A DNA stretch of 62,930 bases from Desulfobacterales bacterium (GTDB lineage: Bacteria; Desulfobacterota; Desulfobacteria; Desulfobacterales; Desulfosalsimonadaceae): positions 1 to 62,930 of the forward strand of contig JAGXKN010000018.1 of assembly GCA_018335195.1 (NCBI GenBank). Direction: 5' to 3'. The notes under the pieces are model-generated. The model searched no databases. It was not told where the DNA came from and saw only the letters and a list, made by a program, of their open reading frames with translations. A program made the translations under genes and the position numbers. Shown here one piece after another: positions 3,626 to 55,188 of this stretch (positions within the stretch are counted from its first letter, which is position 1; every line of letters starts with the position of its first letter).

Positions 3626-5314
3626 ATGTCTCAGGATCCGTCCGTTCCGGAAGCAAAAAATCGACCCGGCCAAATCAGCCTCCCGGAAAAACAAGACATT
3701 CTGGAAGACGCGCCAGTGGGCATCTTCACCTCCACCCCGGCCGGAGGCGTTTCATATGCAAACAAAACTCTGGCCCGCATGCTGGGTTATGAATCGCCCC
3801 GGGGCCTGATTGCCGCCGTAACCGACATTGCCACGCAAATATATGCCAATCCCCGGGACAGGAAGGAGTTCCAGCGCCTTGTGGACATGCACGGTGAGGT
3901 GAAAAACTACGAATGCCGTTTTCTTGACTGCAACGGGGCAGCGTTCTGGGTGTCCATCAATGCGCGTTCCGTCAGCGGCCGGAAAGCAAGCACCACATGT
4001 TACCATGGTTTTGTAACCGACATTGATGAGCACAAGCGGGCCGAAAAGGCGTTGCAGGAAAGCCGGAACTTACTTGCAAAAGCCCAGGAAATCGCCCATA
4101 TCGGAAGCTGGGAATTGGACCTGCAAGCCGATCGCCTGACATGGACAGATGAGGTATACCGCATTTTCGGCCTGCACCCGCAGGAATTTGGTGCCACCTA
4201 CAGGGCCTTTCTGGATCACGTGCATCCGGATGACCGTGCGAGAGTGGATGCGGCCTATGTAAAATCGCTAAATGAAGGAAAAGACACCTACGAGATTCAA
4301 CACCGGGTTATCCGTAAAAATACCGGTGAAATCCGAGAGGTTTATGAAAAGTGTTTTCATGAACGCGACTCCTCCGGAAGGATCATCCGGTCTGTCGGAA
4401 TGATTCAGGATGTCACCAAACTCAAGCGCGCCGAAGAGGCGCTGCAGAAAAGCGAGGAGCGCTTTCAAAAAATGCTCGCCCTTGTGCCGGACATGATATC
4501 AATACAGGATGCCGACATGAATATCGTTTACAGCAACTGGAAGGGAATCGCCGAGGTTCCGGAACAAAATCGGGCCCTTGGCACAAAATGTTACCGGACC
4601 TACAGGGGATATGATCATGTATGCCCTGATTGCCTGCCCATATCGGTTATTGATTCAAAACAGGCCTTCCAGGAGGAGATAAAATTGCCTGACGGGGGTT
4701 GGCTCGATCTCCGGATCATTCCCATTTTGGATGCGCAAGGAAATGTCGAGTGTTTCGTGGAATGGGCCAGGGACATTACCCAGCAAAAGCGCTTAGAGGA
4801 AAGGCTGCAGGCCCTGGCCACCATAGATGACCTTACCAATCTCTGGAACCGCAGGTATTTTCTAAATAAGGCCACCCACGAAATCGAGCGTGCCAAGCGC
4901 TACGGGACGGTTTTTTCCGTTTTGATCCTTGATATCGATGATTTTAAAAATATTAATGACACTTACGGTCATGCTGCAGGTGACGCCGTATTAAAACATT
5001 TTGCGGCAAAGATAAAAGACAGCCTTCGTCAGGCGGATTTATCAGGGCGCCTGGGCGGCGAGGAATTCGGCATACTCCTGCCGAATACAGGCATTGACGA
5101 TGCATATCTGCTGGCCGAAAGGCTGAGACGGGTAACAGAAAAAACGCCCGGAAACTATGCAGATAATGATCTTTTTATTACGGCGAGCATCGGCGTGGCA
5201 GTTTACCGCCGGGATCTTGCCAGCGTGGATGAACTGTTTCTGGAGGCAGACAAGGCCTTATACAAAGCCAAAACAGACGGCAAAAACCGCGTCAGAAAAA
5301 CGGCTCCGGGATAA
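3626..5314 (+). CDS. PAS-PAS-PAS-GGDEF diguanylate cyclase
   Basis: 562 residues, no membrane segment. Three PAS/PAC modules lie at about 25-135, 145-265 and 275-390. The second and third are joined by RAEEALQKSEERF, and the third holds several cysteines (CYRTYRGYDHVCPDC), perhaps sensing redox state. The GGDEF domain covers about 395-560 with an intact active site GGEEF near 476. An RQAD inhibition (I) site lies five residues before it, so the enzyme should make cyclic-di-GMP with product inhibition. The ATG at 3626 follows a GGAGC-like ribosome site. It sits just after the HD-GYP gene on the same strand, giving opposing cyclic-di-GMP activities in one cluster. Confidence 0.92.
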   Translation: MSQDPSVPEAKNRPGQISLPEKQDILEDAPVGIFTSTPAGGVSYANKTLARMLGYESPRGLIAAVTDIATQIYANPRDRKEFQRLVDMHGEVKNYECRFLDCNGAAFWVSINARSVSGRKASTTCYHGFVTDIDEHKRAEKALQESRNLLAKAQEIAHIGSWELDLQADRLTWTDEVYRIFGLHPQEFGATYRAFLDHVHPDDRARVDAAYVKSLNEGKDTYEIQHRVIRKNTGEIREVYEKCFHERDSSGRIIRSVGMIQDVTKLKRAEEALQKSEERFQKMLALVPDMISIQDADMNIVYSNWKGIAEVPEQNRALGTKCYRTYRGYDHVCPDCLPISVIDSKQAFQEEIKLPDGGWLDLRIIPILDAQGNVECFVEWARDITQQKRLEERLQALATIDDLTNLWNRRYFLNKATHEIERAKRYGTVFSVLILDIDDFKNINDTYGHAAGDAVLKHFAAKIKDSLRQADLSGRLGGEEFGILLPNTGIDDAYLLAERLRRVTEKTPGNYADNDLFITASIGVAVYRRDLASVDELFLEADKALYKAKTDGKNRVRKTAPG

Positions 5315-28001: not shown

Positions 28002-29747
28002 GTAGTGCCAACAGACTGGGATAAAAAGCTTTCAATTCCAATTAATAAAATATAAATTGGGGGTGTCAAAAGAAAGGAGCCCCCATGTTCGCCAGAGTTA
28101 AAAAATCTGGAAAATATCAGTACTTGCAGATCGTCGAAAACACCAAGGTCAAGGGCAGGGTCCGCCAGCAGGTCATCGCCACTGTCGGCCGCCTGGATCA
28201 CCTCCAGGAAAAGGGGCGTGTAGAAACGCTGATCAAATCCCTGTCCCGATACTCTGAAAAAGCCATGCTGATTTTGACGGGGCACAGCGACCCGGATGCG
28301 GTTACAATCAAGATCGGCCCGGCCCTGATCTTTGAACGGCTGTGGAAAAACACCGGCATCAAGCAGGCCCTGCAGAAATTGCTCCGAGACCGCAAATTTG
28401 GGTTCGATGTGGAAAGAGCCGTGTTTCTTACCGTGTTTCACCGGCTGATGAGCGCCGGCTCGGATCGGTACTGCGAGCGCTGGCGGCGCGATTATGCCGT
28501 TGCCGGCACCGAAGATCTTGAACTTCACCATCTTTACCGCGCCATGGCGTTTTTGGGAGAGGCCCCTGGCGATCAGAGCCGGGCTTCGGATCTGGCCCCC
28601 AGGTGCAACAAGGACCTGGTTGAAGAAGAGATGTTTAAGACCTGGCGGAACCTGTTCACCGGCCTGGAGCTGGTCTTCTTTGATACCACCTCGATCTATT
28701 TTGAGGGCGAAGGCGGAGAAACCCTCGGAGAAAGAGGCTTTAGCAAGGATCACCGGCCGGATCTCAAGCAGATGATGGTCGGTGTGGTCATCGATGATGA
28801 GGGTCGGCCCATCTGTTGCGAGATGTGGCCCGGCAATACCGCAGATGTCACAAGTCTTGTGACCATCAGCGAACATATGCGGGAGCGATTTGGCATCAAG
28901 CGCTTCTGTATCGTGGCAGATCGGAGCATGATCAGCTCCGGCAACCTCAACTACCTGGAGGAAAACGGAATCCCGTATATCCTGGGCACCCGGATGCGAA
29001 AGGACAAGGAGGTCCGCGAGCAGGTACTCACCTGCGGTGGCCGCTACCGTGAGGTTCATCCCATCGGATCCGATGCCAAAGACCCATCGCCGCTCAAGGT
29101 AAAAGAGGTGCGCCACATGGACCGGCGCTACATCGTGTGCCTTAACGAACGGCAGGCTGCCAAAGACAGGCTGACCCGGGAGGCCATCATCGAGGCCCTC
29201 AAGGAAAAGATCCCGCAGGGCCCCAAGAGCCTGGTGGGCAACAAGGGATACCGCAGATATGTCCGGATCGAAAAGCACAGCGCTTCGATCGACTCTGAGA
29301 AAGTAAAAAGCGAGGCCCGTTTTGACGGCAAGTATATCCTGCGAACCAATACCGACCTGCCCGCTGACAAGGTCGCGATGAAGTACAAGGAGCTGTGGCA
29401 GGTCGAGCGGGTGTTCCGGGACATAAAATCCATGTTCGAAACCCGGCCCATCTTCCACCAGCGCGATGATACCATCCGCGGGCATGTCTTCTGCAGTTTT
29501 CTGGCCCTGGTCCTGCGCAAGGAGCTGGAGCGCAATCTGGAAAAGGCCGGTCACGTGTTTGAGTGGTCGCATATAAAACGGGATCTGCAGGCGCTGCAGG
29601 AGACCTACATAGAGGAAAACGGCAACAAGCTTGCGATTCGCAGCCGGGCAGAAGGCGTATGCGGCAAGGTGTTCCAGGCTGTCGGCATGGCGATGCCGCC
29701 GACAATCCGCGAAATTTAATGTGCGGTTTCTACAGTTTTGGCATGAG
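28002..29747 (+). mobile_element. IS1634-type (IS4 group) insertion sequence
   Basis: One intact transposase gene bounded by imperfect inverted ends (AGTGCCAACAGACTG on the left; complement of CATGCCAAAACTGTAG on the right). The 11-bp direct repeat GGTAGTGCCAA occurs at 28001-28011 and 29748-29758 and may be part of a target duplication; precise tips are uncertain. It lies between riboswitch copy 1 and the truncated TPR gene, and probably removed the N-terminal part of the latter. Confidence 0.7.
28085..29719 (+). CDS. IS1634-family transposase
   Basis: 544 residues, full family length. The N-terminus FARVKKSGKYQYLQIVENTK is typical. DDE residues are seen in FFDTTSIYFEGEG (first D, about residue 200), IVADRSMISSGN (second D, about 280) and the YREK-like block YKELWQVERVFRDIKSM (E, about 440). 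ATG at 28085 follows AAAGGAGC. The frame is open throughout, so the element may still move. The long antisense frame over this gene is not considered real. Confidence 0.92.
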   Translation: MFARVKKSGKYQYLQIVENTKVKGRVRQQVIATVGRLDHLQEKGRVETLIKSLSRYSEKAMLILTGHSDPDAVTIKIGPALIFERLWKNTGIKQALQKLLRDRKFGFDVERAVFLTVFHRLMSAGSDRYCERWRRDYAVAGTEDLELHHLYRAMAFLGEAPGDQSRASDLAPRCNKDLVEEEMFKTWRNLFTGLELVFFDTTSIYFEGEGGETLGERGFSKDHRPDLKQMMVGVVIDDEGRPICCEMWPGNTADVTSLVTISEHMRERFGIKRFCIVADRSMISSGNLNYLEENGIPYILGTRMRKDKEVREQVLTCGGRYREVHPIGSDAKDPSPLKVKEVRHMDRRYIVCLNERQAAKDRLTREAIIEALKEKIPQGPKSLVGNKGYRRYVRIEKHSASIDSEKVKSEARFDGKYILRTNTDLPADKVAMKYKELWQVERVFRDIKSMFETRPIFHQRDDTIRGHVFCSFLALVLRKELERNLEKAGHVFEWSHIKRDLQALQETYIEENGNKLAIRSRAEGVCGKVFQAVGMAMPPTIREI

Positions 29748-29786: not shown

Positions 29787-30431
29787 TTTTTAAAAAAGAT
29801 TACAAAATGCACTGTTAAAGATCAGTATAAAGGATATTTGCCTGAAGCCGAGCAGTATCTCGCGGAGGCGATGGCGTATTATGAAAAAGCGTCTATTGGT
29901 TTTTATGGACAAGTGGCAGCTGGATATCTGGGAAACACTTACAAGGACATGAGCAAATACAATAAAGCTCTGGGATTTATAAAAAAGTTTATTTCCATGA
30001 TTCAGGACACAAGGACGCTGTTGTCCTGGCACAACGTCTATAAATTATTCATGGTCAATGTCCATATTCTCAACAAGAAGAAGGATGTTGACCTACATGA
30101 GGTGGAAGATCTCATTGCATCTCATGAAAATAACCGGCTTGCGGCATGCGAAGCATTCGGGGCCCGTTTCATCGCAGAAATTTATATGCATATCGATGAT
30201 CATCAAATGATTGAGGCAGAATCATGGATAAACCACGCGATTGGCTTTAATACGAAATACGACACCGAGTGGGAATTGGCCCGGGACTATGTCGTCTATG
30301 CCGAGTGGTTCCTCAAGGGTGGGGACTCTCCAAAGGCAAGGGAGCAGCTCACAACGGCCATTGGTTTTTGCGAGAAATGCGGGGCTGACGGGTGGGTTGA
30401 AAAATATGAAAGGGACCTGGCAACGTTATAA
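29787..30431 (+). pseudogene. Orphan C-terminal TPR fragment of a cyclase/ATPase-type regulator
   Basis: About 214 codons open from just after the insertion sequence to a stop at 30431, with no good start; only TTG at 29838. It contains TPR-like helices (EAEQYLAEAMAYYEKASIGF, then YNKALGFIKKF) and ends CEKCGADGWVEKYERDLATL. That end matches the C-terminus of the large cyclase at 32350-35718 (MQECGADGWVKRYREALADL). It is therefore the tail of a second, paralogous cyclase whose front is gone. The rest of the gene is not found on the other side of the insertion, so a deletion accompanied or followed insertion. Confidence 0.7.
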
Positions 30432-35927: not shown

Positions 35928-35969
35928 AAAAATAGCCGAACCACCACACATAAATGGCAGTCCGGCTAT
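35928..35969 (-). terminator. Intrinsic terminator overlapping riboswitch copy 2
   Basis: Minus strand: ATAGCCGGAC pairs with GTTCGGCTAT around a loop of about 18 bases, followed by TTTTT-ATC. As in copy 1, the 5' arm is the 3' strand of the aptamer, so ligand binding should prevent termination. Confidence 0.82.
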
Positions 35970-36055
35970 CTGTGATCCGAATCAACGATGAAAAGCGCTA
36001 CCGAAAAGACCCGTGACTTTCCGTCCCAATCTTACGATTGGTTTGGCTTTATCAT
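35955..36055 (-). promoter_or_regulatory. GEMM-type (cyclic-di-GMP-I-like) riboswitch aptamer, copy 2
   Basis: Same order as copy 1 on the minus strand: AAAGCCAAACC, AATC-GTAA-GATT stem, GGGACGGAAAGTCACGGGTCT, a longer variable arm, AGATAGCCGGACTGCC. The small stem is AATC/GATT here and AGTC/GATT in copy 1 (a pairing-preserving change). The distal arms differ in sequence while the cores are identical, as expected of a structured RNA. It controls the cyclase regulator, whose ATG lies about 210 bases past the terminator. The intervening leader (35719-35925) holds no other gene. Confidence 0.8.
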
Positions 36056-36061
36056 AATTTT

Positions 36062-36090
36062 TATATGCTCCTGGAAATCCTCCGTGTCAA
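36062..36090 (-). promoter_or_regulatory. Sigma-70 promoter of the cyclase leader
   Basis: TTGACA (36090-36085), exactly 17 bases, CATATA (36067-36062), with start near 36055 at the first bases of the aptamer. Identical boxes and spacing to the autotransporter promoter. Confidence 0.82.
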
Positions 36091-36370
36091 TTATTTTCGG
36101 AGATTTAACAAAAATTCTTCCATTATCCCAAAATGGAGATTACGTCTATCATTGCACATGCAATTACACACAAAAACTCCTGTGCACAATACCGGGGGCA
36201 TGTTTTAAAATATTGAAATTGGCAACCTGTCTCACACAGTGGAACTGACGGAATAGAACCTGAAGTGCGGGAAATGGTCTTTTTTCGGCGGTCCGGGCTC
36301 TGCGAGCGCTGCACCGCAGGGGTTTATGTTGTGGCTTGACATTTCAACCTTTACCGGCGATTATGAGAAC
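36091..36370. other. Divergent spacer before the metallophosphoesterase
   Basis: About 280 bases upstream of riboswitch promoter 2 on one side and the metallophosphoesterase on the other. It contains a TGCACATGCA palindrome-like stretch near 36155 but no gene or clear second riboswitch. Confidence 0.3.
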
Positions 36371-37777
36371 ATGGCACAAACAAATTTTGACAACAACCCC
36401 CGGCGCACGGCTTTTTTAATTGTTGCCGCAGTGTTTTGCTTGTTTTGCGTGGGCTGCGGTGTGTCCAAACATCCGCCCGTGGAATTCAGGTACCAGCAGG
36501 AAGAAACTGTAAAAGATCTGCAGGCAAAAAATTTTTCCTACCCCCAGACACGATTCGTTGTCCTTTCAGATCCGCACTACTACCATCCGAGCCTGGGCAC
36601 CTCCGGGCCGGACTTTGAAGCATACATCCGCGATGACCGGAAGATGCTGGCAAAAAGCGATGAGATACTGGATGCGGCCATTGAACGGGTAAGGCGGGAA
36701 AAAGCGGATTTTATCCTGATTTGCGGCGATCTCACCAAGGACGGAGAAAAAATCAATCATCGGTATATTGCCGAAAAAATTGCAAATCTGCATCCCTCGG
36801 CAGACCTATACGTGGTTCCCGGCAATCACGACGTGGCAAACGGCATATCCCGCAGGTACACAAAAGACAGAACAGAGCCGGTTGCCAGTGTTTCCCCGGA
36901 AGAATTCAAGAGAATATACGCAGATTACGGGTATGCCTCTTGCCTGGATGCCGACGCAGCATCGCTTAGCTACGTGGCCGAACCCGTGCCCGGCTTGTGG
37001 GTCCTGGCACTGGATTCATGCCTGTGGCGGGAAAACGACCCCGGCAAGCATCCGGTCACAGACGGCCGGTTTCCCGGGCAAACCCTGAAATGGATCGAGA
37101 AAGTGCTGATCCGGGCCAGGCAGCAGGAAAAAGCAGTGCTGTCCTTCATGCACCACGGCCTGATGGAACACTATCCATCCAACGAAAAATATTACGGCCA
37201 ATACGTGGTCGACAACAGCGACACATTAACCCGGCTTTTTGCCGCCTACGGCGTGCGCCTGGTATTCACCGGCCACTTTCACGCCCAGGACATCACCGCA
37301 AAAAACCCGGAACAACACACATCCCGGGTTTTTGACGTGGAAACCGGATCCCTGGTCACCTATCCCTGCCCTTACCGCACAGTGGCCTTTTCCGGGGACG
37401 GCACGTGCACCATTGAAAGCCGGTTCATCCAATCCATTGACTCCGTGGACACGGGCTTTCCCGATTATGCCCGGGATTTCGCATTCCGGGGAACCGTGGA
37501 GCTGGCGGACAAAGCGCTTGAAGGATATTGGGTCTCCGAAAAAGGCAGAAAGATCCTTGCCCCGCAGATAGCAGAAGCCTACGTGGCCCACCTGGAAGGC
37601 AACGAAAACAGGCCCGAACAAGTACTCAAGGCTAAAGGCACCGGCCTGATGGGCCGCATCGTGGTGTTTTCTCAAAAAGACTTGGTGCGGGGCTGGTGGA
37701 CCGACCTCTGGCCGGCAGACAACCGCCTGACAATCGATTTCAAAGACGGATCCATTTCCAGCGATACTCGGCATTGA
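36371..37777 (+). CDS. Metallophosphoesterase, probable lipoprotein
   Basis: 468 residues from ATG at 36371, chosen over the in-frame ATG at 36326 because a signal peptide begins here (RRTAFLIVAAVFCLFCVGC). The final cysteine fits a lipobox, so the protein is probably anchored in the envelope. All calcineurin-type metal motifs are present: SDPHY (D-x-H), GDLTKDG, GNHDV, FMHHGL and GHFHAQD. It should hydrolyse a phosphoester; the substrate is unknown, and the family includes cyclic-nucleotide and nucleotide phosphodiesterases. It is transcribed away from the cyclase regulator across a shared upstream region. Confidence 0.88.
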   Translation: MAQTNFDNNPRRTAFLIVAAVFCLFCVGCGVSKHPPVEFRYQQEETVKDLQAKNFSYPQTRFVVLSDPHYYHPSLGTSGPDFEAYIRDDRKMLAKSDEILDAAIERVRREKADFILICGDLTKDGEKINHRYIAEKIANLHPSADLYVVPGNHDVANGISRRYTKDRTEPVASVSPEEFKRIYADYGYASCLDADAASLSYVAEPVPGLWVLALDSCLWRENDPGKHPVTDGRFPGQTLKWIEKVLIRARQQEKAVLSFMHHGLMEHYPSNEKYYGQYVVDNSDTLTRLFAAYGVRLVFTGHFHAQDITAKNPEQHTSRVFDVETGSLVTYPCPYRTVAFSGDGTCTIESRFIQSIDSVDTGFPDYARDFAFRGTVELADKALEGYWVSEKGRKILAPQIAEAYVAHLEGNENRPEQVLKAKGTGLMGRIVVFSQKDLVRGWWTDLWPADNRLTIDFKDGSISSDTRH

Positions 37778-40450: not shown

Positions 40451-41530
40451 ATGACCAGCCCGGCCGGATCCAAACACATTGCGCAAAAAGAGCATGCACA
40501 GGCCTTAAGGCTGCGACGCGCGTTTCTGGCATTTTGCGGGTATATACTGGTTTCCGCCGGGGCACTTTTAAGCTACTATCTCGGATTTATACGGGATATC
40601 GGCATCTTCGGCATTACAGCAATCCTGCTCGCCCTGCTGCTGGGAAACCTCATTGTTTTTGCCCTGATACATACCGGCATAAACAGACGCTTTGCCGATC
40701 CCAGCATGACCCTGCCTCAGCTGGTGATAGGCATCGTCTTCTGTACGGTGCTCGCTTACTACACAAAAAGCCCCTTGCGGGGCATGGATATTCTGCTTTA
40801 CATCCTGGTGCTCATGTTCGGTGTATTCCGGCTGCGGCTGATTAATTTTATTATTCTTTCAATCATTACAACCTTTTTGTATGCCGGCACCGTCGCGCTG
40901 CTGCATCATTTTCACCCTGCTCATGTCGATATCCGGCTTGAAACACTCCGCACGGCAAGCCTGCTGCTGGCGACCACATGGACGTCTTTCATATTTAATT
41001 ATATTGCAAGCATGAGAAGAAAAATCCGGCGGATCGCCAGCCATGACGAGCTCACCGGGCTTTACAACAGAAGGGAAATCTTTCGCATCCTTGCGCGCGA
41101 AAAGGCCCTGTCCCAGCGCTCCGGACTGCCGTTTTCCCTCTGCATCCTGGACCTGGACGATTTCAAGGCCGTCAATGACACCTATAGTCATCTAGCCGGG
41201 GATTTCGTGTTAAAGGAATTTGCCAGAATTCTCAGGGAAAACATCCGCGCCGAGGATTATGCCGGCAGATACGGAGGCGAGGAATTTATCGTGATTTTCG
41301 TTAATTACAACCTCAAGGACAATCATACGCCAAGCGCACAAAGACTGCTGGCGGCGATCCGCAACCTGCGGTTCCCGGACATTTCTGACAGCCTCCGAAT
41401 CGCCGCCTCGATCGGCGTGGCCGCCTATCGGCCCGAAGAAAGCATTGACTCCCTGCTGGCCAGAGCCGACCAGGCCCTGTACCTGGCCAAGCTCGCAGGT
41501 AAAAACCGGATCGTGTGCGGGGAAAAATGA
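40451..41530 (+). CDS. Membrane-anchored GGDEF diguanylate cyclase
   Basis: 359 residues. The first 190 contain about six membrane helices (FLAFCGYILVSAGALLSYYL, FGITAILLALLLGNLIVFAL, LILYILVLMF-like, FIILSIITTFLYAGTVALL, LLLATTWTSFIFNYI), a MASE-like sensor. The GGDEF domain covers 195-359: DELTGLYNRREIF, DLDDFKAVNDTYSHLAGD, active-site GGEEF near 274 and an RAED inhibitory site five residues before it. It should make cyclic-di-GMP in response to a membrane signal. Its stop overlaps the start of the SDR gene by four bases (ATGA), so the two are translationally coupled. Confidence 0.92.
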   Translation: MTSPAGSKHIAQKEHAQALRLRRAFLAFCGYILVSAGALLSYYLGFIRDIGIFGITAILLALLLGNLIVFALIHTGINRRFADPSMTLPQLVIGIVFCTVLAYYTKSPLRGMDILLYILVLMFGVFRLRLINFIILSIITTFLYAGTVALLHHFHPAHVDIRLETLRTASLLLATTWTSFIFNYIASMRRKIRRIASHDELTGLYNRREIFRILAREKALSQRSGLPFSLCILDLDDFKAVNDTYSHLAGDFVLKEFARILRENIRAEDYAGRYGGEEFIVIFVNYNLKDNHTPSAQRLLAAIRNLRFPDISDSLRIAASIGVAAYRPEESIDSLLARADQALYLAKLAGKNRIVCGEK

Positions 41531-53883: not shown

Positions 53884-53988
53884 TCCGGAAATCCCGCAGA
53901 ATTTGTGCACTCTGGGGATTTCGTGGTTATACTGTAAGACAAACAGCTTCCCGGTTTTCCCGGAAGACTGAACAGACAAGGCCCGGAC

Positions 53989-55188
53989 ATGGAACGGTAT
54001 TACAAGGAAAGATTCGAAGCCCAGCGCCGGCTGGCCCGGAAGGTCGCCCCGTTTATGGAGGCAAACGAGATCCTTGAAAAGATGCGCTCCGAGCTCAGGG
54101 AAATCATCCCCGTGGCAATGGAGGCCTGCATCCTGCTGCTCGACCCCGAGGCCGGCAAATACACCCGCCCGCTGCAGTGCGCCTTATATGACCGGCCGGT
54201 CAATTGCCTGAAATGCAAGCGCCACCGCCCGGCCATACAGCAGGCCATTTCCAGAAAAAAAGCGGTGATGGTCAAGGGCAGCGAACCGGTTGAAAGGCAT
54301 GACGGCACCTCGGTGCCGATCGGACCGGAAGCCGCAGCACCCGTGTTTTCAGAAGACACTCTGCTCGCAGTGGTCAGTGTCGTGGCTAGACCCGGGACGA
54401 GTTTTTCCGGCAGGGACTTCTTTCTGCTCCAGGACTTTGCCGAAACCGTGGGCCACCTAATCGGCAGCGCAAAAAAACACTGGTCCATGACACAGGAAAA
54501 AATCCGGATCAACCAGATGTTAACCCACCTGTCGCCCTTTGTTCCCCAGTCCGTGCGTACCATGGCAGAAAAAAACCCGGAGATGCTCGGTCGAGAAAAG
54601 GAAAAAAAGGATGTCAGCGTACTTTTTCTGGATTTGGAAGGATATACCAAGCTCAGCATGGACCGGCCCGAGGCAGAGGTAAACACCCTGGTGGAAAAAA
54701 TCTTTTCCAGCTTTGTCGACCCCATCCACCGATCCCACGGGGAGATCAACGAAACCGCAGGAGACGGGCTCATGATCATATTCAAGGACGACGATCCCCG
54801 GCAAAACGCAGCAAACGCGGTCAAGGCAGCCATAGACATCCGGCAGAGAAACCGCGAGGTAAACCGTGAGCTTGCTGCAAGCCACAAACCGGTCAACGTG
54901 AACATGGGAATCAACACCGGAGAGGCCCTGCTGGGCATGACCCGCCTGGAAGGGACATTGAGCACCCGCATGACATATACTGCAAGCGGCACTGTCACCA
55001 ACCTGGCCGCACGCTTGGCCGAACACGCCCAGGGCGGCGAAATCCTGTTCGGCCAGCGCACCCGCGACATGATCGAAAACCTCTGGCCAGTCTACGACCG
55101 CGGCAAAATCCGCCTCAAGGGCATGGATGCGCCGGTGCAGATCTATTCACTTTTTAGTCCGGAAGGTCTCAAAAATAGACAACCATAG
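53989..55188 (+). CDS. GAF-domain class III adenylate/guanylate cyclase
   Basis: 399 residues. Residues about 20-170 are a GAF-like sensor with a CxxC pair (VNCLKCKRHRPAIQQA), possibly redox or metal responsive. The cyclase domain covers about 200-385: VLFLDLEGYTKLS (first metal aspartate), NETAGDGLMIIF (second), NMGINTGEALLG and TYTASGTVTNLAARLAEH with the transition-state Asn and Arg. The usual Asp of the GDTVN block is absent (SGTVTN), so base specificity is uncertain. It is soluble, and follows the methyltransferase by 105 bases on the same strand. Confidence 0.88.
   Translation: MERYYKERFEAQRRLARKVAPFMEANEILEKMRSELREIIPVAMEACILLLDPEAGKYTRPLQCALYDRPVNCLKCKRHRPAIQQAISRKKAVMVKGSEPVERHDGTSVPIGPEAAAPVFSEDTLLAVVSVVARPGTSFSGRDFFLLQDFAETVGHLIGSAKKHWSMTQEKIRINQMLTHLSPFVPQSVRTMAEKNPEMLGREKEKKDVSVLFLDLEGYTKLSMDRPEAEVNTLVEKIFSSFVDPIHRSHGEINETAGDGLMIIFKDDDPRQNAANAVKAAIDIRQRNREVNRELAASHKPVNVNMGINTGEALLGMTRLEGTLSTRMTYTASGTVTNLAARLAEHAQGGEILFGQRTRDMIENLWPVYDRGKIRLKGMDAPVQIYSLFSPEGLKNRQP

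Follow-up and report, generated by a model that had tools for sequence, protein, structure and literature searches.

Vc2 of Vibrio cholerae (c-di-GMP-I/GEMM-I, RF01051) is the described riboswitch to which the element reported here can best be compared; its positions 21 and 46 form a G-C pair, and an A at position 20 (G20A) marks the cGAMP riboswitches (GEMM-Ib). The contacts of Vc2 with c-di-GMP are G20, A47, and C92 (PMC4744006), and a survey of the class does not include positions 21 and 46 in the list of highly conserved ones (PMC3764141). A class III cyclase is tied to c-di-GMP signaling in the Xanthomonas campestris system XC_0250/XC_0249, in which cGMP stimulates a diguanylate cyclase, the direction being from cGMP to a GGDEF protein and c-di-GMP (PMC3770947). 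A c-di-GMP-sensing leader RNA that undergoes a rearrangement is also found in Clostridioides difficile, in the form of a c-di-GMP-II aptamer with a group I intron (PMC12564702); that system differs in its aptamer and in its splicing output and is compared here for a side finding alone, namely, aptamers with an insertion in P3. The literature searched, some of it accessible as excerpts, describes no class III cyclase gene preceded by a c-di-GMP riboswitch, and the preliminary description of this locus had likewise known of no such report.

The window, i.e., the whole stretch of 62,930 nucleotides analyzed, stems from a Desulfobacterales bacterium of the GTDB family Desulfosalsimonadaceae and contains two copies of a c-di-GMP-I-type element. 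The features are listed below, where R1 is a model that we built from aligned aptamers (n = 38) of the subtype defined in the next paragraph.

36090-36062, (-) strand: promoter, TTGACA at 36090-36085, 17-base spacer, CATATA at 36067-36062 (sequence)
36057-35952, (-) strand: aptamer of the c-di-GMP-I clan (Rfam RF03167 and RF01051, R1 model, subtype covariation)
35969-35928, (-) strand: terminator overlapping the aptamer (leader fold, arm match, constrained folds)
35718-32350, (-) strand: zinc ribbon + class III cyclase + AAA_16 + TPR protein (P0001), 1122 aa (Pfam, alignment to solved cyclases)
32303-30459, (-) strand: acetyl-CoA hydrolase/transferase + GNAT fusion, 614 aa (ORF, Pfam)
27878-27752, (-) strand: first copy, aptamer (27878-27775) plus terminator (Rfam, terminator match, constrained fold)
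27498-22369, (-) strand: autotransporter, 1709 aa, target of the first (twin) copy (PF03797, E 6e-55)
36326-37777, (+) strand: calcineurin-like phosphoesterase with a lipoprotein-like signal (by eye), divergent and outside riboswitch control (Pfam)

The aptamer upstream of the cyclase reached its highest Rfam score, 68.7 bits, with RF03167 (c-di-GMP-I-GGC; hit 36056-35952, gathering score 59, E 3.6e-14, Rfam cmscan), followed by 65.3 bits with RF01051 (cut-off 35), and scored 79.5 bits with R1; among the 14 aptamers of its genome, it ranked 4th by RF03167 and 2nd by RF01051. Like Vc2, it has the P1/P2/P3 layout, with 2 to 3 pairs in P1, a GNRA loop on P2 (here GUAA), and the contacts G20 (36047), A47 (36020), and C92 (35957, next to C93 at 35956). 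It differs from Vc2 in that (i) the pair 21-46 is C-G (C21 at 36046, G46 at 36021), an arrangement that we call flipped and that also deviates from the G-C of the RF03167 consensus, (ii) the terminator takes the 3' strand of the aptamer, and (iii) the target is a class III cyclase. The 5' arm of this terminator (35969-35954) is the 3' strand of P3/P1, C92 included; the 3' arm covers 35947-35932 and the U run 35932-35928, and about 200 bases separate the terminator from the start codon of the cyclase gene (35718). Transcription is predicted to start at approximately the first aptamer base. Unconstrained folding of the 142-base leader gave -52.9 kcal/mol (z -4.5) with an 18-pair terminator hairpin, as opposed to -30.6 kcal/mol with the aptamer pairs enforced, a difference of about 22 kcal/mol in favor of the terminator state. 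A generic consensus scan flagged neither promoter nor terminator in the cyclase-side leader, where CATATA violates the final-T rule of the scan and the terminator stem extends into its own U run; at the twin copy, it flagged the terminator and not the promoter.

The twin aptamer scored 65.2 bits with RF03167 (hit 27877-27775, cut-off 59) and 60.8 bits with RF01051 (cut-off 35). The two cores had been called nearly identical in the preliminary description, and they indeed agree at 46 of the 48 bases at the 5' end and at 17 of the 18 at the 3' end. The A/G change that it regarded as pairing preserving is found at base 20 counted from the aptamer start, where it faces a U in P2 and converts A-U into G-U; the variable arm and the terminator loop differ between the copies, again as it had stated. 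Both copies possess G20, A47, and C92 as well as the flipped pair. A DDE transposase gene (28085-29719, + strand) lies between the two riboswitches, and beside it is a 197-aa fragment (29838-30428, + strand) with 28% identity to the C terminus of the cyclase, perhaps the remnant of a second cyclase-type gene.

The cyclase protein matches PF00211 (E 1e-26), AAA_16 (3e-23), a double zinc ribbon (1e-8), and TPR (3e-13), and its best match among solved cyclases is 3r5g CyaB (E 3.5e-25). The metal-binding aspartates D101 and D145, the asparagine N223, and the arginine R227 are intact; together with the Rfam scores and the Pfam matches, this bears out the earlier proposal of a second riboswitch copy, with promoter and terminator, upstream of a gene for a class III cyclase. 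The substrate pair is E141/K216. As a rule, Lys with Asp or Thr at these two sites corresponds to ATP, and Glu with Cys or Gly to GTP. The first site is occupied by Lys in CyaB and 1wc0 and by Glu in 3et6, annotated as a guanylyl cyclase, and 2w01, annotated as an adenylate cyclase although it makes cGMP; at the second site the aligned solved cyclases have Thr, Cys, or Gly in place of K216. Activity is uncertain because E141/K216, which differs from their Lys/Thr, Glu/Cys, and Glu/Gly pairs, matches none of the solved cyclases aligned; Glu with Lys, although not a pair of an assignable type, may point to GTP as the substrate and perhaps to cGMP as the product, one of the two candidates (cAMP or cGMP) of the preliminary description. 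The acetyl-CoA hydrolase/GNAT gene follows 46 bases downstream of the cyclase and, judging by this spacing, is probably on the same transcript. The divergent phosphoesterase was considered as a partner cNMP phosphodiesterase and rejected, since it carries a lipoprotein-like signal and nothing speaks in its favor. Elsewhere in the window are a second class III cyclase (53938-55185, + strand) with GAF domains and the residue set D-E-D-T-N-R and two GGDEF domains (40451-41530 and 4817-5290, both + strand). The genome, a 99-contig assembly, encodes 7 class III cyclases, 8 cNMP-binding domains over the cut-off, and 20 GGDEF matches besides a weak match of the cyclase itself.

The flipped subtype is widespread in the GTDB family. 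We examined 136 of the 139 aptamers listed for the family, omitting three below the cut-off (G032:C331, G032:C497, and G029:C64:195372). In these aptamers, which come from 34 of the 36 family genomes, the pair 21-46 was flipped in 107 cases and standard in 24, and 5 could not be read by the pattern. A number of features characterize the subtype. (i) When 38 flipped aptamers are aligned, 95.0% of the cells pair, and the covariation amounts to 0.459, compared to 0.193 after shuffling and at most 0.120 with slid partners; two-sided changes occur at 10 of the 20 pairs, so that P1, P2, and P3 are all backed by covariation, P1 being the weakest (77%). (ii) A47 is present in 104 of the 107, and G20, A47, and C92 are jointly kept in 93 of the 102 with a readable 3' end (5 more unread). 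(iii) A terminator overlaps the aptamer in 91/106 flipped but only 2/24 standard-pair aptamers, the score used being reached in 96/135 aptamers and in 11/637 unrelated control stretches; the arrangement in 11 of the 24 standard-pair aptamers is rather CTCCT with AGGAG behind it, which could cover a ribosome site. (iv) TTGAC is found between positions -50 and -16 in 67 of the 103 flipped aptamers with enough upstream DNA, as compared to 69 of 2060 shuffles, and in 38 of the 103 it lies exactly 33 bases upstream of the aptamer; given this enrichment, transcription probably starts at the aptamer itself. In the order, R1 matches 130 of 194 genomes at an E value of at most 1e-6. Some flipped-type aptamers have an A at position 20, the base of the cGAMP sensors (L195, L198, L125, L135, and L139), and runs of three neighboring aptamers occur at L049:730-1017 (G012), L238:3230-3758 (G199), and L018:16491-18983 (contig C93 of the genome studied here).

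Because both window copies keep the contacts G20, A47, and C92, c-di-GMP is their likely ligand. The Rfam label c-di-GMP-I-GGC could instead be taken to point to a different cyclic dinucleotide as the ligand, 3',3'-cGAMP or an unknown one, in line with the higher score for RF03167 than for RF01051 and with the flipped pair beside the binding pocket. However, the RF03167 consensus has a G at model position 37 (Vc2 position 47), where both copies have an A, and the label, whose GGC we infer to stand for bases 20/47/92, therefore rests on overall similarity. Position 20, moreover, is G in both copies and not the A of the cGAMP sensors. A Ser at the base-contact position of GGDEF domains is typical of hybrid cGAMP synthases; this position was readable for 12 of the genome's 20 GGDEF matches, and none of the 12 has Ser. 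A ligand other than c-di-GMP is thus unlikely, and the cGAMP or new-ligand reading of the label was rejected in view of the three conserved contacts; it follows that the label can fall on aptamers with standard ligand contacts. With c-di-GMP as the ligand, RNA polymerase would start at the aptamer, and binding would allow P1 and P3 to keep the 3' strand that carries C92, so that the cyclase gene is read; in the absence of c-di-GMP, this strand would pair with the next bases to form the terminator. High c-di-GMP would then result in more cyclase synthesis. Since the terminator reuses the 3' strand of the aptamer, the two states are mutually exclusive, and the ligand is expected to prevent termination, i.e., the folding model argues for an ON switch; the greater stability of the terminator state in the full leader implies that switching would have to be co-transcriptional. 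That the element is an OFF switch, or that it has decayed and has no regulatory role, appears even less probable than a different ligand. Degenerate aptamers do exist in this genome, as illustrated by the copy on C73, which is below the RF01051 cut-off and has no good terminator match, but the window aptamer ranks high (4/14 and 2/14), and no decay is evident in its terminator arms, its promoter boxes, or the residues of its binding pocket. Read as an ON switch for c-di-GMP, the locus is a testable example of an RNA that senses c-di-GMP and would thereby control the transcription, and so the level, of a cyclase, the reverse of the Xanthomonas route.

A profile search of all six-frame ORFs in the fetched stretches placed a cyclase behind an aptamer at two sites, namely, the window and G020:C46. 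At the latter site, the cyclase is the third gene of an operon with small gaps, in which the aptamer is followed by OpuAC, a hybrid histidine kinase, and a REC+cyclase+AAA+TPR protein. A third candidate, G035:C146 (L139), was rejected as an independent riboswitch-cyclase case, as its protein combines a zinc ribbon with AAA and TPR and lacks a cyclase domain. The first gene behind each family aptamer was taken mechanically as the longest ORF starting at most 800 bases from the aptamer or, otherwise, the longest in the stretch, a rule that is wrong in places (it skipped, for instance, the TetR-like gene that follows one C59 copy). It yielded 126 different ORFs with a length of 100 aa or more from the 34 genomes (3 aptamers had no ORF and 5 shorter ones only), 125 of which were scanned with Pfam after one doubtful ORF was dropped. 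Only one of the 126 is a cyclase, with 0.20 expected (P of at least one, 0.18); when three genes per aptamer are considered, 2 cyclases compare to 0.59 expected (P of at least two, 0.12). The expected values are based on 153 class III cyclase domains in the 36 family genomes and an assumed 0.95 genes per kb. In the order-level sample, restricted to the best matches listed, no cyclase was found behind 94 aptamers in 86 loci; in 26 of these loci the flank does not exceed 1.5 kb, and contig ends shorten several more.

The same question was approached from the cyclases. We typed 35 of the 153 family cyclases, a set that had been fetched by similarity to the window's protein, and found the Glu/Lys residue set in 9 of them (the window, G015, G020:C46, G021, G027, and four in G029); the sets DDDKNR and EENKNR, represented by one gene each, were kept out of this count. 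G029 (5.1 Mb; L171-L174 and L178) contains 28 class III cyclase domains, many of them in head-to-tail zinc-ribbon/cyclase/AAA/TPR clusters. An aptamer in cis accompanies 2 of the 9 Glu/Lys cyclases, directly in the window and with the cyclase as third gene in the other operon, and none was found for the other 7 in the DNA examined. Missed aptamers before other cyclases were considered and rejected, since R1 detected nothing at E < 1 in 21 sources, some of whose stretches end at contig ends, beyond the window, L100, and L139; a search by named genomes retrieved 3 loci, none of which (0/3) has an aptamer. The closest orthologue (83% identical in G015:C53 and 84% in JAIPDS010000009.1, a contig of a Desulfobacteraceae MAG) is likewise without an aptamer, and the similarity to the window's upstream DNA starts only 27 bases before the start codon. 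In G015, it lies downstream of a GGDEF gene that also gives a PAS match below the threshold. The preliminary description had presented the locus as a direct link between two second-messenger systems; the gene arrangement is real, but a conserved coupling finds no support in the relatives sampled, the homologous genes largely lacking the element.

These data bear on a more far-reaching proposal, according to which Glu/Lys class III cyclases, with a zinc ribbon or receiver, AAA, and TPR, form a dedicated and conserved output arm of c-di-GMP that makes a cyclic mononucleotide, probably cGMP, and is controlled by portable riboswitch cassettes in some genomes and by adjoining diguanylate cyclases in others. 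One GTP-derived messenger would then set the synthesis of another through RNA. The proposal draws on the Glu/Lys subtype of both aptamer-led cyclases, on the REC+cyclase+AAA+TPR gene that ends the operon at G020:C46, on the GGDEF gene in front of the G015 orthologue, and on two cNMP-binding proteins that are also encoded downstream of c-di-GMP-I aptamers. We nonetheless judge it improbable: no aptamer was found for 7 of the 9 Glu/Lys cyclases, a single direct target among 126 first genes could be due to chance, and the 94 sampled aptamers of the order precede no cyclase. Given the window's cyclase, the chance that the second one is also Glu/Lys is 0.06 to 0.26, and this coincidence is weak because the set occurs in 9 of the 35 typed cyclases, which had themselves been selected for similarity to that of the window.

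We therefore favor, with a probability of about 75%, the reading that a lineage-wide, flipped c-di-GMP-I riboswitch acts as an ON switch of the cyclase, and probably of the acetyl-CoA hydrolase/GNAT gene as well, and that it reached this site as a copied cassette that made the cyclase a recent recruit. The 14 aptamers of the genome are up to 93% alike, and the genes behind them include two for AMP-binding enzymes and others for TetR, DUF362, OpuAC, a strictosidine-synthase-like protein, the autotransporter, and the cyclase. Over 175 bases (-42 to +132), the cassette before the cyclase shows 89% identity to the C93 copy upstream of the DUF362 gene; its identity to the C8 copy amounts to 91% over 134 bases, and that between the C93 and C8 copies to 93% over 133 bases. 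The likeness of the copies is best explained if promoter-aptamer-terminator cassettes have been copied within the genome and gained or lost at single genes, in which case a broad c-di-GMP regulon has most likely acquired the cyclase in the recent past. The Pfam families listed for the 125 downstream proteins include fn3 (10), MopE-like (8), pectinacetylesterase (5), PAS (4), TetR (3), GGDEF (2), and cNMP binding (2). The survey thus suggests how such links may originate, namely, by cassettes copied before different genes, which widen the c-di-GMP regulon.

In addition, six c-di-GMP-I aptamers of one genus share an insertion within P3 that is conserved and about 170 bases long, the whole element measuring 242 to 244 bases:

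L155:301-544
L163:301-546
L164:301-545
L165:301-545
L168:2336-2581, (-) strand
L169:1295-1538, (-) strand

In Rfam, these aptamers match c-di-GMP-I alone, over the cut-off in 5 of the 6, and a core pattern occurs in 2 of the 194 genomes of the order. Two-sided changes are seen at 11 of 68 predicted pairs, and the insertion may represent an embedded RNA. Downstream of two of the inserted aptamers are genes for cNMP-binding proteins (PF00027; L165:566-1069 and L168:1568-2095, the latter on the - strand), one of them about 20 bases away.
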